DNA from: Xanthostigma xanthostigma
Lineage: Eukaryota; Arthropoda; Insecta; Raphidioptera; Raphidiidae
Assembly: GCA_963575645.1 (NCBI GenBank)
Contig: OY754465.1
Span: 40,016,401-40,080,400, forward strand
Reading direction: 5' to 3'
DNA: 64,000 nucleotides
Both the position numbers and the translations under genes were made by a program. The notes beneath the pieces are model-generated. The model did not search any database, was not told the origin of the DNA, and saw nothing but the letters and a program-made list of their open reading frames with translations. Below are positions 10,196-42,404 of this stretch, in pieces (position 1 is the first letter of the stretch; the number at the start of each line of letters is the position of its first letter).

Positions 10196-11282
10196 TGCAG
10201 CTATTAATTAATTATTTGTATATTAAGAACCTTACGTCTTTATGACCGTAACGAAATCATACGTTATGGTTATAGATTATAGTTGCTCGACAACCAAGAT
10301 TATTAGAATACAAACCCTTCAGTGATTCATTATCCGCAAACTACTGTGTGGACGATTTTGTTAAAAAGAAACGTTTTGATCATTAAATACAACCTAGCTG
10401 TAATATGGTGCAATGAGACCATTTTTATCAGTCTTCGTGCACTGAAGAACTGAAATATGCCTAACAAATTTCGTTTAAATTAATAAGTATTTCGAGAATT
10501 AAAATTTCCCGCATTTGATAATCTTTGTGAATAATTTAAAATTCATCATTCGTAATGTAATTTTACATAGAATCACTCCCGACACTCAACGGTTTCCTGA
10601 ATTCATTTTGGTGTCGTTTTAGTGGAAATTGTATTTCATTTTGGACACTAAAATAAAAAATAGTATTCGCCTCGGCTTTGCAATAGTCGGGTAGAAACAA
10701 CTGTGTGTTGTTAATTTCAATCCTTTCTTGTATTAAAATACTAATCATAATTATATTATTGAATAATTCACATTCTCAAATTAATGACTGCTGTACCACA
10801 TTCTTTAACTCTGTGCCATTGTACCATTATATTATACAGTGTTTGTTTCTGATATGCCACTTTAAAAAATGCTGAGCAGGTCCACATAATTGTACGTCAG
10901 GTCAAAACATTAGTGACTGTGCAATGTGAAACATCAGTTAAAAAACTGTAGATAACTTTAAGACGGTACATCTCGTTTCATTTTGTTTCGCAATAAGTTA
11001 AGAATGAACGCAGCCAGTAGGCCAGAAAAATATTGATCGCATATAATTGCTGACGTTTACCACAATAATTGCACTTTTTATTTTGCATTCTTCAGACAAT
11101 TAAAGCTGTAATCTTCAACAAATATTGTCAATATCGCTCTGTCTGTTTTATAGCAGATAGTCTCACAAATAATAATAAAATATATAATTTGCACTTATTT
11201 TTCACTCGGCACTTGGTAGAACATGATTAATAACAAATAGTAAAAACAAAAAACACGTGAAAATTCTACAAAATATTTTGTC
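10196..11282. other. Gene-free AT-rich stretch
   Basis: No gene, RNA or repeat partner recognised; the ORF at 10563-10748 (minus) has no recognisable domain. Confidence 0.4.
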
Positions 11283-11340
11283 TTCTCAACGGTCGTTTCG
11301 GACATTCAGTTCATCATCAGGAGTACTGATCGTTGAGAAC
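11283..11340 (-). ncRNA. Degenerate hammerhead-like hairpin (Penelope-type)
   Basis: On the minus strand a cctgatgatga core is followed by a weak stem and ccgaaac, between inverted arms ttctcaacgrtc (11283-11294 and about 11329-11340). The ctgatga and gaaa blocks are those of the hammerhead catalytic core, but the cleavage triplet is not of the required NUH form and stem II is imperfect, so it is probably a dead remnant of a Penelope-like element terminus. Confidence 0.4.
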
Positions 11341-11612
11341 AGAAAATATGTTGTTTTGACGTGATAACGTCTTATAAATTGATGAATCACCAATATTATA
11401 AATTGATAAAACACCGGCTGCATGTACGAAAAAGTGTAACGTAACGTTCCTAATGTTCGTAACGCATAACGCGTAACGTTCCGCCTGACCCTGTGCGTGC
11501 TTTTTGCTAATTTCTCGCTCAATTTAAATCAGATCGGTTTGAAACCAGTCTTAAACGAAAGAGGAGAACATTTTACATAGATTTCGTATAACAGAATTTG
11601 CCTAAACAGTTT

Positions 11613-15405: not shown

Positions 15406-15447
15406 TAATAAAAAATAGAGAATAGTTACTTCTTACCACAACAAGTT

Positions 15448-15497
15448 TATTAGTGGATGTACATTTCGAGAGCTATGCTCTCATCTTCAGCAATACA
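15448..15497 (-). ncRNA. Hammerhead-like ribozyme motif, left arm
   Basis: The exact inverted copy of the motif at 15507-15556, read on the minus strand. Confidence 0.5.
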
Positions 15498-15506
15498 CTA
15501 AACTAG

Positions 15507-15556
15507 TGTATTGCTGAAGATGAGAGCATAGCTCTCGAAATGTACATCCACTAATA
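15507..15556 (+). ncRNA. Hammerhead-like ribozyme motif, right arm
   Basis: Core ctgaaga at 15514-15520, stem II gagagc (15522-15527) with gctctc (15531-15536), gaaa at 15537-15540, then atgtacatc with a possible auc cleavage triplet. One extra u lies between the core and stem II. Stem III is tiny, as in Penelope-type hammerheads, and stem I pairing is poor, so activity is doubtful. A mirror copy is on the minus strand at 15448-15497. Confidence 0.5.
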
Positions 15557-15604
15557 AACTTGTTGTGGTAAGAAGTAACTATTCTCTATTTTTTATTATT
15601 ATTA

Positions 15605-21188: not shown

Positions 21189-24100
21189 AAGGTTCTAAAG
21201 AAGAATTCGATACTAAAAAAATTTTTTGTTTGGAAAAGCGTTCTATGAAGACATTTCACCGGTTTTAAATTTCATTCTGGCTAAAATGTCATCTTTTAAA
21301 GTATATCACCAATGCAATAAAATCAGATACGTGCATGCTTGTATATATGTGTGTGTAAGCATTTTTCTGCATTCTTGCAGTAGCTGCAGTAATATATCGA
21401 AGATGGTCGTTGATCAGAGATCGGCAGTTCGCGCCATTGCAGATATAGGTTTTATATGTATAATTAATGATGACAGGCCTTTATCGGTGACAACATGCAG
21501 TGTGTGCAGCGCTTGCGTGACTGGAGACTACGCCAAACGAGTGTGGATCGCGCTATACCTCAGATGTTAGATTAAACATAGAACAGCAATCGGCTGGATT
21601 CTATCGATATTTTGCTATCAGACCAGACATTCAAAACCTATTAATTGGGTGAAAATAAACAATATTTTAACATCACTACACATTCAGCTAAAGACAATGA
21701 GGTTCAGTGCGGCCCTGGATAATTGGAAATACGTAAATGAACTTATTAATACTATCTAAATCGCTAAAGGGCTGAGCTTTCCTGACCAGATACATCGGAA
21801 GTGCCACAGAGATAGATTTCTAGATCGAAAACCAGGAGTTTCGTACATTAAAAAATGAATATTTTAAGAATTTGAGTTAAATCATAGATAAAGTAATGAT
21901 AGCTGCACAATTTACTTTAGAGGAAAAAGTAGAACGTTAAATAAAAACATTTTTTTGTTTATAATACCATTGGATACAGTATACAATTTATTTATAGGTG
22001 TGAATCTTAGACAATAGATATTTGAATAACATTTAGTTAAAATTATGCATATCCGGGAAAGAAGGTTTAAATTCCTAAACAAGGATACAGATTTCTTGAC
22101 TTTCTCTAGTTTTTTGAATCATACACAAAAACGACACACGATTTTTTTAGGAAAGTGGATAGGTACAAAAGCGAAACGAACACTCCAGCAAGTCTACATT
22201 TGATGAGTTCATATAAATTGATTGTAAATTATAGACGCTCAAATGCTGAGACCATCAGTGTCTATGGGTGTATCGGAGAATCTGCCAGTTAACATACACA
22301 AACCGGCTAGTACGAGCTCGGGTTCCTGGAAGTGTTTATTCCCATAAAACGTTGGATTGTTAACTGCATTCCAATGCTTCCTCTGTGAAGTGACGAGCAT
22401 CCATATGTGTTCATGAGACCTATATTTTAAAATTAAAAATGAAGTGCCTTGTTAGGTTTTCTGTGATAAAAGAATAACTTTGATCAAGATTATGATTTCA
22501 ATACGGTTTGTTTCCTTGCAAAAGACTGAGTAAGGAGAAAAGAACCATTGAACATTTTAAGATAGGAATCAACATTGTTAGAGTGTCCGAAGAATCCAAC
22601 CATTCATAGTCTGAGGTCAGAACACAGAGTGCATTTGTGAGTTTAGACATTTCCGCAAACATGTGGAATAATAATTTCTATACGATAGATAGATATATAA
22701 GCACAGTACATGTTGTGCCCATAGGTTATGTCAGTCCACGTCCATATACTGTATAAGATACACAACTATTGTACAACCAAACTGAATCAAAGATAGATAT
22801 TAGAGTCTCTACAGTTGAAGGTATCAGCAAACAAAATCAAAATACAGACACACTTGTAGAATCAAATGCACGAAAAGAAATTGAGGAAAAGATTTTGCAA
22901 AATATTAAGGATAAGTATCAGTAAAATGTAAAATAACACAGTGGAGATTATTTTTTATTTTTTTGTTTTCTTCATTAATAAACCTTCCAATCATCTCCAA
23001 TTCACAATAAAGAACAAACGCCTAACATCACAACAGTCGTGTCGATATTTTGATCTTGTTTGACGTCGCACGAAGCCGACTAGCGCCGCTAGTGAGTAAT
23101 AGAGAATTATTTAACTCACTTTTTATAGAAATCGCGACATGTTTCCACGGTGATAAGTCAAAAACTTTAGTTGGGCATAATGTGTCAAAAAATGTAATAA
23201 GGAAAACTTCCGTTAAATTTACATACAATAAAATTCACATAAATAGCATAATATAAAAGGTACATGAGAATTATTTATTTATCAATTTATAATATATAAA
23301 TAATTAATTTGTTCACACTGAGAACGTAACGTCAAATTATGGCACCAATGATCTTAATTTTACTTAAATCGCCATCAGCGCAACAGCCCGGAACACAACA
23401 AACATTTCCAGATCTCCTAGTTTAACCCATGTTTTCTTTGTAATTAAAAAACTTTATAAAATTATAACTATTTTCACTAATAATAGACATTGCTTACTGA
23501 CATATGCAAAACTTGAGTTGGAAGTTTCCCTTAGTGCTCACCACAAACTTAGCATCCCTGCACATAGCCCATAGGTTTAAAGAATGTCCCTGTCAAATTT
23601 TGTTGAAATTACTCCACTTATTTTGCAATAACCAAGAAACTGAGCGAACAAACAATCAAAAGTAAACTCCAAACGATCGCAAACTACATGGGCGTAGAAA
23701 AATTCTCTACCCAACTTGATTCGCATGCACGCACGTGTAGATAAAACAAAGCAACAACGACGTCCAACCATCAACAATTGAACAGGACATTGCAGCTCTA
23801 CAGAGAGCAATGCTGTTACACACAGTTCTATAAATGCTTGGCTATAAGCTAATCGTACTCATATCAATCAGAAGATCGCAAACAACTCGCAATGGACAGT
23901 TGCCCCCCGATTAGCCTTTATCACAATAAATAAATGCCGTGCAATTGTCTATTTACCGATGCGGTAAAAAGCTATACATTTGAACAACGAACACCATACT
24001 ATGATCCATCTCTGCCACACCATAGCGGCATAAAATGTAGGTGTCTCGTTTAGTTTAGTCTTAGTTTAAACAAGCTTTTGCACGCGGCTTCGCTCTCGTG

Positions 24101-24191
24101 AAAGTAATTTTGAAATGCTAGTTTTTTTTTAAACAACAGATATTTAATTAAATCATTGTTTAAAACAATTGCGACAAATTATAAATAACTA
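21189..24191. other. Gene-free stretch of about 3 kb
   Basis: No gene or repeat was recognised. The longest ORF, 21226-21570 (114 codons, cysteine-rich in its second half), lacks any known domain. Overlapping ORFs on both strands at 23028-23256 are likewise unrecognised. Confidence 0.4.
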
Positions 24192-24410
24192 ACGATGAAG
24201 GAAGGTTTTGGTTGAGGATCATAAATAAATAAGCTTTACCAATGTTTCGCTAGTGGCCAACGTTTCGAAAATATTTTCATCTTCAGGGCCTCAAGCTGGT
24301 CGAAAGGTGGTAAATTGTTAAAACAATATACATGATCATATTAAAAAAAAATATGATCATTGGTAAAGCTTATTTATTTATGATCCTCAACCAAAACCTT
24401 CCGTCATCGT
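24192..24410 (-). mobile_element. Penelope-like element terminal repeat with hammerhead
   Basis: Inverted arms of 52 bp (24192-24243 and 24359-24410, one mismatch) flank a 115-bp centre that contains a well-formed hammerhead ribozyme on the minus strand. Penelope-like retroelements are known to carry minimal hammerheads in their terminal repeats, which may lie inverted. No reverse transcriptase or GIY-YIG nuclease is present nearby, so this is a terminal fragment. Confidence 0.65.
24249..24296 (-). ncRNA. Type I hammerhead ribozyme motif
   Basis: Reading the minus strand: gcuugaggcc, core cugaaga, one u, hairpin gaaaauauuuuc, gaaac, guu, then ggccacuagc. Stem I forms from ggcc with ggcc, then after an internal loop from agc with gcu. 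Stem II is gaaa/uuuc with an auau loop. Stem III is only about two pairs, as in the minimal Penelope-type hammerheads that act as dimers. The guu triplet fits the NUH cleavage rule. Pairing is much better than in the other hammerhead-like copies of this window. Confidence 0.65.
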
Positions 24411-25935
24411 AACATTCTATTGGATCAACACTATACTTCATGCTGAAGATATAAACAACTAACAACAAACCAACGAATCAGTAGCGTGGAGGAAACGAAC
24501 AATAAATGGAAAGAAAATAATTTTTGTAAATAGAACGCAAGTAAGGTGGGCAGAACTATATAAGTTATGTAACAAAAATATTCATTAAATTAAAAATAAA
24601 CAGTGGAACTTCGTGAATTCATACTCCGATCATTCGAATTTCTCATTACTCGATTAACTGGTCCCTTGAACTCCCTATATAACCAAATGTAATATTTTCT
24701 TGGATAATTCGAACACCAACTTCGATTATTCGAACTTTTTATCTGAGCTCAATAAACTTTTTACCCAATAAACTCATACCTAAAACAAAAGACACTTTTT
24801 CTGGAATTGTACATTCTATCTGTTATAAATGTCGTTACAAATACAGCCAGTATATTATTTTTTTTCATTACTTTTTCGCTACCGTACCTTGAGAATCATT
24901 AACCGAAATAAGCTGTGTTTTAGATATCGAAAATGTACAATAGGCTCTATACTACAAATTGAAAGCACATTAATTAATCAGTTTTGCAACAAATTATTAA
25001 ACACACTGTAACAGCGAAAAAACATAGATACACGAAGCGAAAAAAATATATTGTCAATAAATTAACAGACATAACATGTTTATGTTTCTGAACTAGATTT
25101 TAACAGCGTGGAAGCATTTCTTAAAAAAACGCTACCGTTTTTACAGACATCACATACTATGTATTTCTGATCTAGATTTTATTTCACTGTTACGTTTGCA
25201 AACAAAGGTAAAAAAAAACAATTAATAGAATGCAGAATACCTATAATAAGAAATCAATTAATGATTACGACCCGAAAGGTAACATCAACATAGTAACAAT
25301 ATAAGACAAATGATAGACACATGAAAGTTGATCGTCACTTGTTTCCTGTGAGCAATCAGCAAATTGTGTTGATACGACAACGCGAATAACATGACAAGAA
25401 AACTAATAACCGATAAAAAAGATTAAACTAACGTTATACATATGTATGTACAAATAGAAATACATACACAACTGTCAACAAATGACGCCGCGGACGTTCT
25501 TACTAGAGTATAGACGTCAGTATACAGTGAAAAAGTAAATATGTTCTATAAGAGACGATACTTCAACAAGGAAAAGATTTTAAAACAGGATTGAAATATA
25601 CATTCTACTTTACTCCAAAAATGTCCTCGATTGATTTTCTCACGGGGCAGAATTTAAAATTCGCGCTTATGCTTGATTTGGAACGGAGAACTGAAATTAA
25701 ATTGCAAACAGTTTGGCGTCAAGTCAATCAGTCTGTTTACATATTATGACTGTACTCTAGTGAGAGAATAGTATACAGCGTGTGTTAGGTAAGAGGAAAT
25801 AGTAGGTACCTACAATATAATTTAGATCAAATTCTTTGAGGCAACAAAAAATGCACTGTGAAATAAAATATATCCGAAAACAATTCATTATTATTATTAT
25901 GTATAAATCTGTATTCAATGTAGGTACATATTGTA
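24411..25935. other. Gene-free AT-rich stretch
   Basis: No gene or repeat recognised; ORFs are short and without domains. Confidence 0.4.
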
Positions 25936-42172: not shown

Positions 42173-42272
42173 TATTTATGAATGTACAGTTCGAGAGCTA
42201 TGCTCTCATCTTCATAGCAATCATTAGCTGAAAACTAGAGAAATAAGCTCTCGAAAAGCACATTCATAAATA
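42173..42272 (-). mobile_element. Degenerate hammerhead-bearing inverted repeat
   Basis: Arms tatttatgaatgtrc (42173 onward) and its inverted partner ending at 42272 enclose ttcgagagctatgctctcat, the same block as in the 15406-15598 repeat. On the minus strand the core reads atgaaga instead of ctgaaga, and gaac instead of gaaa, so two invariant ribozyme positions are lost. A dead relative of the Penelope-type terminus. Confidence 0.55.
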
Positions 42273-42404
42273 AAATGGCCGGAGTATGCAATGACTAAAT
42301 TTGTTGTTTTTTATATTATTTCAACCGCAGTGCTCCTAATTACTAAATTAGTCTTTATTCTTTATCAATAAAATATTTGTTTAATTGCGAAAGGTGAATC
42401 GGAA
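42273..42404. other. Upstream of the 176-codon ORF
   Basis: AT-rich; no clear promoter element seen. Confidence 0.3.

Follow-up and report, generated by a model that had tools for sequence, protein, structure and literature searches.

Penelope-like retroelements of the Penelope/Poseidon type, such as Penelope of Drosophila virilis, PAc of Anolis and the Pen families of Adineta, combine a reverse transcriptase (RT) and a GIY-YIG endonuclease with a pLTR (portions used here of PMC3846280, PMC8969392 and PMC11167929). Common to those elements and to the insertions described here, as far as the same portions go, are an inverted pLTR at the 5' side, an optional tail of 30-40 bp, short target duplications, A/T-rich targets and 5' truncation (PMC3846280, PMC8969392, PMC11167929). 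How such elements are copied into the genome is unsettled. The excerpted text of one study, which describes an inverted pLTR and an optional tail on one inverted pLTR, prefers self-priming on antisense RNA and leaves the matter open (PMC3846280), whereas in vitro work on the Penelope protein of Anolis found that it cuts both strands of the DNA and extends them, with reverse transcription starting at two adjacent sites and the tail being the stretch between them (PMC11167929). The hammerhead motif of Penelope required protein to cut in the in vitro work, and the start site did not differ between strands, which counts against two-site paired priming of the kind considered below; later steps of integration were left open (PMC11167929). 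A minimal hammerhead lacking a closable stem III is the form given for Penelope-like elements in the consulted sections of two reviews (PMC7761336, PMC6155905), the first of which describes the repeats of retrozymes as running head-to-tail.

Here, we describe an analysis of a short insertion from Xanthostigma xanthostigma and of its relatives elsewhere in the 623-Mb genome. The window, that is, the whole stretch of DNA that was analysed, comprises 64,000 nucleotides (C2:40016401-40080400). Minimal type I hammerheads of Penelope-like elements were reportedly described by Cervera and de la Pena in 2014 and by Lunse et al. in 2017, and the initial annotation had placed such a motif on the minus strand of the window. 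Direct reading, a motif search and the predicted fold bear this out, locating the motif at 24249-24296. Stem I is formed by the strands GCUUGAGGCC (24296-24287) and GGCCACUAGC (24258-24249), with eight pairs over 10 positions and U.U and A.A mismatches, and it contains both the GGCC/GGCC pairing and the distal GCU/AGC pairing that had been assigned to it. The core CUGAAGA (24286-24280) is followed by an extra, bulged U (24279), a 4-bp stem II of GAAA/UUUC (24278-24275/24270-24267), the conserved GAAA (24266-24263) with its following C (24262), and a GUU triplet (24261-24259), after which, at 24259, established hammerhead rules predict the cut. The features of a type I hammerhead, a conserved core with stems I and II that is open at stem I, are thus found by direct reading, and the predicted fold of a sister copy, L025, has the same two-stem shape. 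Stem III would comprise A-U and C-G pairs with no loop and cannot close within one molecule, leaving no usable stem III; the locus also lacks a tandem hammerhead partner, the second arm being inverted and ending before the core.

The window contains the pattern CTGANGA-N(4-25)-GAAACG two times, against a mean of 0.09 in 100 shuffles, none of which reached two. Fold stability is unexceptional (z of -0.63 for the window copy, with 48 of 200 shuffles folding equally well, and z of -1.11 for the sister copy). The proposed search with Rfam hammerhead models returned no match at gathering scores in the whole window, and none at E<=10 in either 24000-24600 or the sister copy (L025:1500-1660). These models require stem III, and Penelope motifs are without it. 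Judged on its sequence, the window motif is a genuine minimal type I hammerhead motif, ordinary for its kind, with predicted ribozyme activity. The initial ranking of this site as the best preserved of four is valid at most inside the window, because the form that prevails in the alignment of copies has a stem II longer by 3 nt. Elsewhere in the window, at 15406-15598, lies an inverted repeat whose 95-nt arms match perfectly, are separated by 3 nt and each carry CTGAAGATGAGAGC..GCTCTCGAAATGTA; this palindrome represents a second Penelope-type hammerhead-like family, with GAGAGC/GCUCUC as stem II as opposed to GAAAA/UUUUC in the main family. It has a single-arm relative at L028:239-336 and a weaker (about 70%), decayed, two-armed relative at 42173-42340 of the window. 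A third hammerhead-like site, on the minus strand at 11268-11354, has CTGATGATG..CCGAAACG flanked by 27-nt arms of 85% complementarity; its motif, at 11294-11320, was rejected for carrying GAC in place of the required NUH triplet.

The hammerhead of the main family had been described as lying between inverted arms, in an interval of 24192-24410. That interval does hold the motif and two 53-nt arms (24192-24244 and 24358-24410) that are 98% complementary. The insertion itself spans 256 bp, 24194-24449, and is flanked by 14-bp target duplications with one mismatch, TATAAATAACTAAC at 24180-24193 and TATAAACAACTAAC at 24450-24463; the interval given earlier thus leaves out the tail and the duplications. 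Nor are the arms foreign to the motif, since the left one forms the 3' end of the very copy that carries the motif and the right one is a shorter, inverted copy. The long arm (24194-24343, minus strand) is a spliced pLTR copy without a tail that corresponds to positions 221-474 of the reference copy introduced below, less the intron; its RNA 3' end lies at 24194, and the aligned copies share a sharp edge near 24192. Its exon-exon junction, CUUGAG joined to GCCCUG, falls between 24290 and 24289 on the minus strand, at the same place as a GT-AG intron in other copies. An A/T-rich stretch at 24344-24357, whose assignment is uncertain, joins the two head-to-head arms. The short arm (24358-24411, plus strand), defined by arm complementarity and copy mapping, is a pLTR 3' end without the hammerhead core, and the tail (24412-24449, plus strand), defined by copy mapping, is found at the outer end of this arm only. 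It is probable, in a judgement made jointly with the paired-priming explanation given below, that 24194-24449 is a short non-coding Penelope-like insertion in which a long and a short pLTR copy lie head-to-head between 14-bp target duplications.

Related copies are numerous. A DNA search with 24180-24420 gave at least 113 matches with only 40 of 2923 candidates scored, so true copy numbers are larger, and a search with an upstream part of locus L027, a query that contains no arm, gave at least 43 (40 of 411 candidates scored). Sixty loci (L006-L065) were mapped to positions 1-511 of one real copy (L066, E1), in which the intron occupies 275-375, the core begins at 379, the tail-less end lies at 474 and the tail extends to 511; positions 147-214 are a self-complementary stretch. 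Removal of two duplicates (L036, identical to L027, and L043, identical to L031) left 58 distinct loci. In its 53-nt inverted ends and target duplication the window insertion resembles a terminal-inverted-repeat DNA transposon (MITE), in which the hammerhead-like motif would be fortuitous. Yet arm lengths and inner joins differ from copy to copy, the tail is usually present on one arm and absent from the other, the longer copies run into an endonuclease gene of Penelope type, and spliced copies refute a transposon of this type, which we consider extremely improbable.

The longer copies extend 5' into a piece of a gene. At four loci (L063, L073, L074 and L075) the pLTR, or its 5' part, lies directly behind a GIY-YIG endonuclease piece, which confirms the initial link to Penelope. 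The piece at L063 (YSLQCNNCNAIYVGQT...) scored 29.2 bits against GIY-YIG (PF01541; cut-off 22.6), with the endonuclease C-terminus in another frame about 80 nt before a pLTR that is itself split by an insert; L073 scored 30.1 bits (same model and cut-off) and continues into the start of the pLTR, the endonuclease at these two loci lying 80-110 nt upstream of the pLTR. L074 has the same order as L073. Used as a DNA query, the endonuclease part found at least 43 matches (40 scored of 517 candidates). A 2.36-kb insertion on C3 (about 30680265-30682623; L075/L076), between GATAGTTTT repeats that form a 9-10 bp duplication, begins with an inverted 3' end that bears the tail and continues with an RT piece, an endonuclease piece and a pLTR with the hammerhead and part of the intron but without a tail. 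Its 443-aa stop-to-stop frame (L075:1549-2880) matched RVT_1 at E 4e-6 and 27.1 bits, slightly under the cut-off of 29.6, and at this one locus shows Penelope-like motifs as judged by eye. In PDB sequence searches, the RT matches of L075 were all weak (best 8bgj_A, E 0.011) and the endonuclease piece of L073 found nothing of use; taken by itself, the endonuclease piece of L075 had no GIY-YIG match at E<=1. Reading frames are broken in the copies that were read. Both RT and endonuclease are linked to this terminus, so the earlier reservation that a Penelope-type RT might not accompany it does not apply. These sequence arrangements confirm that the window insertion is a pLTR, the end fragment of an element of the Penelope-like kind, which is a known one. 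The DNA retrieved around such copies (L067-L076, of which L075 is 5' truncated) showed no pLTR-ORF-pLTR tandem, in which respect it would differ from the known Penelope/Poseidon-type elements; L066, taken up as such a pair 2.4 kb apart, was rejected as two separate insertions. A related endonuclease subfamily on C6, C1 and C5 (76-77% identity, at least 13 matches) has nearly equal scores and looks younger than the one studied. Directly upstream of the truncated Penelope copy at L073, frames at 635-1434 resemble an LTR-retrotransposon integrase by eye.

Introns in Penelope elements were reportedly noted by Arkhipova et al. in 2003. In the present family, copies either run from CAGCTTGAG directly into GCCCTGAAGATG or carry a GTATG...CATAG intron between the two. 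This GT-AG intron is about 100 nt long (98-103 nt in 11 of 12 rows; 51 nt in L050), and the window copy is spliced. The family differs from the minimal type I hammerheads of Penelope-like elements in having the 5' strand of stem I interrupted by the intron, in having no Rfam match and in an ATG frame that, read by eye in the common copy, ends after 15 codons. By direct reading, the 5' strand of stem I takes GCUUGAG from the first exon and GCC from the second, and an unspliced RNA is left with just the inner GGCC/GGCC pairs; we infer that splicing supplies the outer half of stem I of this predicted ribozyme. The exact 26-mer of the spliced junction was found at 579 places genome-wide (288 + 291) and its reversed control at none, and such hundreds of exactly spliced copies again set the family apart from the known Penelope/Poseidon-type elements. 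The loci recovered with the upstream query comprise 15 unspliced, 12 spliced and one undetermined, proportions that apply to the fetched loci only. In a tree of 30 copies, shown without support values, spliced and unspliced copies are interspersed. Alignment column 117 is A in 6 of 17 spliced copies as against 0 of 12 unspliced ones, and since this A is confined to spliced copies, part of them may have descended from an intronless source.

RNA 3' ends face outward at both edges of 37 of the 58 distinct loci; 17 appear one-ended and four are unclassified. Exactly one arm carries the 37-nt tail at 33 of the 37 two-ended loci, the exceptions being L015 and L042 (ambiguous), L031 (no tail) and L058 (both arms tailed). 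Were the tails independent of each other, roughly half of these 37 loci would be expected to have exactly one. Among the loci recovered with the arm-free query, 10 of 12 two-ended ones likewise have exactly one tail, and 6 of the 17 one-ended copies are tailed. Two-ended copies that nearly always bear exactly one tail are a further difference from known Penelope/Poseidon-type elements. Target duplications scoring at least 10 flank 28 of the 37 two-ended loci as opposed to 0.2% of 1332 mispaired control flanks, and the base at +1 is A in 22 of 29 and 19 of 29 cases at the two cuts. Among the first 100 of the 579 spliced-junction places, all on C1, 16 neighbouring pairs lie less than 1 kb apart, and 15 of these are outward-facing (-,+), head-to-head. 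The sole close head-to-tail pair, with 46 nt between its motifs (C1:73588237-73588308), is a possible natural dimer. These orientations bear on a reading of the family as a metazoan retrozyme, a kind of small, non-autonomous element that carries type I hammerheads in tandem and propagates through circular RNA. Like retrozymes, the copies are short, non-coding, hammerhead-bearing and many; they are arranged head-to-head, in contrast, and belong to a coding Penelope family whose longer copies carry the ORF. With one head-to-tail pair in 16 among those places, the tandem reading was rejected, and we regard a retrozyme origin as very improbable.

Do the two arms of an insertion share a source? Splicing state was concordant at all 10 loci informative for both arms (five spliced/spliced, five unspliced/unspliced, none mixed). 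At variable site 443 the arm pairs were CC in 5, TT in 29 and mixed TC in 1; at site 470, CC in 5, TT in 30 and TC in 2; and at site 421, TT in 5, AA in 20, AT in 1 and CA in 2. Mismatches between arms numbered 71 in 2691 compared with 96.1 expected from the between-locus rate, and 16 minor variants were common to both arms as against 70 in one arm. Moderate divergence between the arms of one insertion, together with the three clear mixed pairs at sites 443 and 470, could reflect separate insertions, or two unrelated RNAs used by chance at one break. A single target duplication nevertheless encloses both arms in the 28 loci noted above, the outward order is near-strict, and splicing state agrees throughout in spite of the mixture of unspliced and spliced loci in the unbiased, upstream-query sample; independent origins of the arms are accordingly quite unlikely. 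That both arms derive from one source is well supported. Because the mismatch between arms is only moderately under the between-locus rate, a single RNA molecule goes beyond what the counts show, and RNAs of one source suffice.

These observations suggest a mechanism in which the element's endonuclease would make a staggered cut in A/T-rich DNA and both exposed 3' ends would prime reverse transcription on sense RNA of one source. One end would start at the distal site, yielding the tail, and the other at the proximal site, yielding none, and the two cDNAs would be joined where they meet. The hammerhead would be the usual minimal Penelope ribozyme, with a predicted function that needs a partner motif or protein to cut. 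We think it likely that the window insertion is a Penelope-like product of this kind, for which sense RNA of a single source was primed twice, each time at a different start site. Weighing against this view, besides the in vitro result on start sites, are the four departures from the one-tail pattern, the apparently one-ended and the unclassified loci, the modest agreement between arms, the shortfall of the RT and endonuclease matches at L075 and the absence of an Rfam hammerhead match. The self-priming model preferred in the excerpted text of PMC3846280, in which a first cDNA or antisense RNA folds back and copies itself into a head-to-head palindrome, would equally yield arms of concordant source, and the head-to-head arrangement is the commonest here too, in the close pairs counted above. 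Copying back would, however, repeat the tail on the second arm, and arms of very unequal length are joined directly in these insertions. Furthermore, self-priming on antisense RNA would retain the intron, yet spliced junctions are abundant and five insertions have both arms spliced. Simple fold-back copying was rejected on the one-tail counts, the unequal arms and the spliced arms, and self-priming appears improbable overall. The counts favour two primings on sense RNA over self-priming on antisense RNA, because spliced arms need sense RNA and copying back would not yield one tail. A stricter form of paired priming, in which the reaction is obligatory, a single sense RNA molecule, spliced or unspliced, is primed by both 3' ends of the same staggered break from start sites 37 nt apart, each insertion receives exactly one tail and the full stem I arises only via splicing, is advanced tentatively, as slightly on the doubtful side of even.

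A literature search of titles and abstract beginnings, with key hammerhead papers outside it, found no report of a one-tail rule or of an intron within a ribozyme stem, and we do not claim their absence from print. For the study of Penelope integration this family offers a useful test case. Its hundreds of copies, removable intron and countable tail make the question of mechanism addressable by statistics on genomic copies, and an intron inside stem I would make folding of the ribozyme depend on splicing, a link that lends itself to testing.
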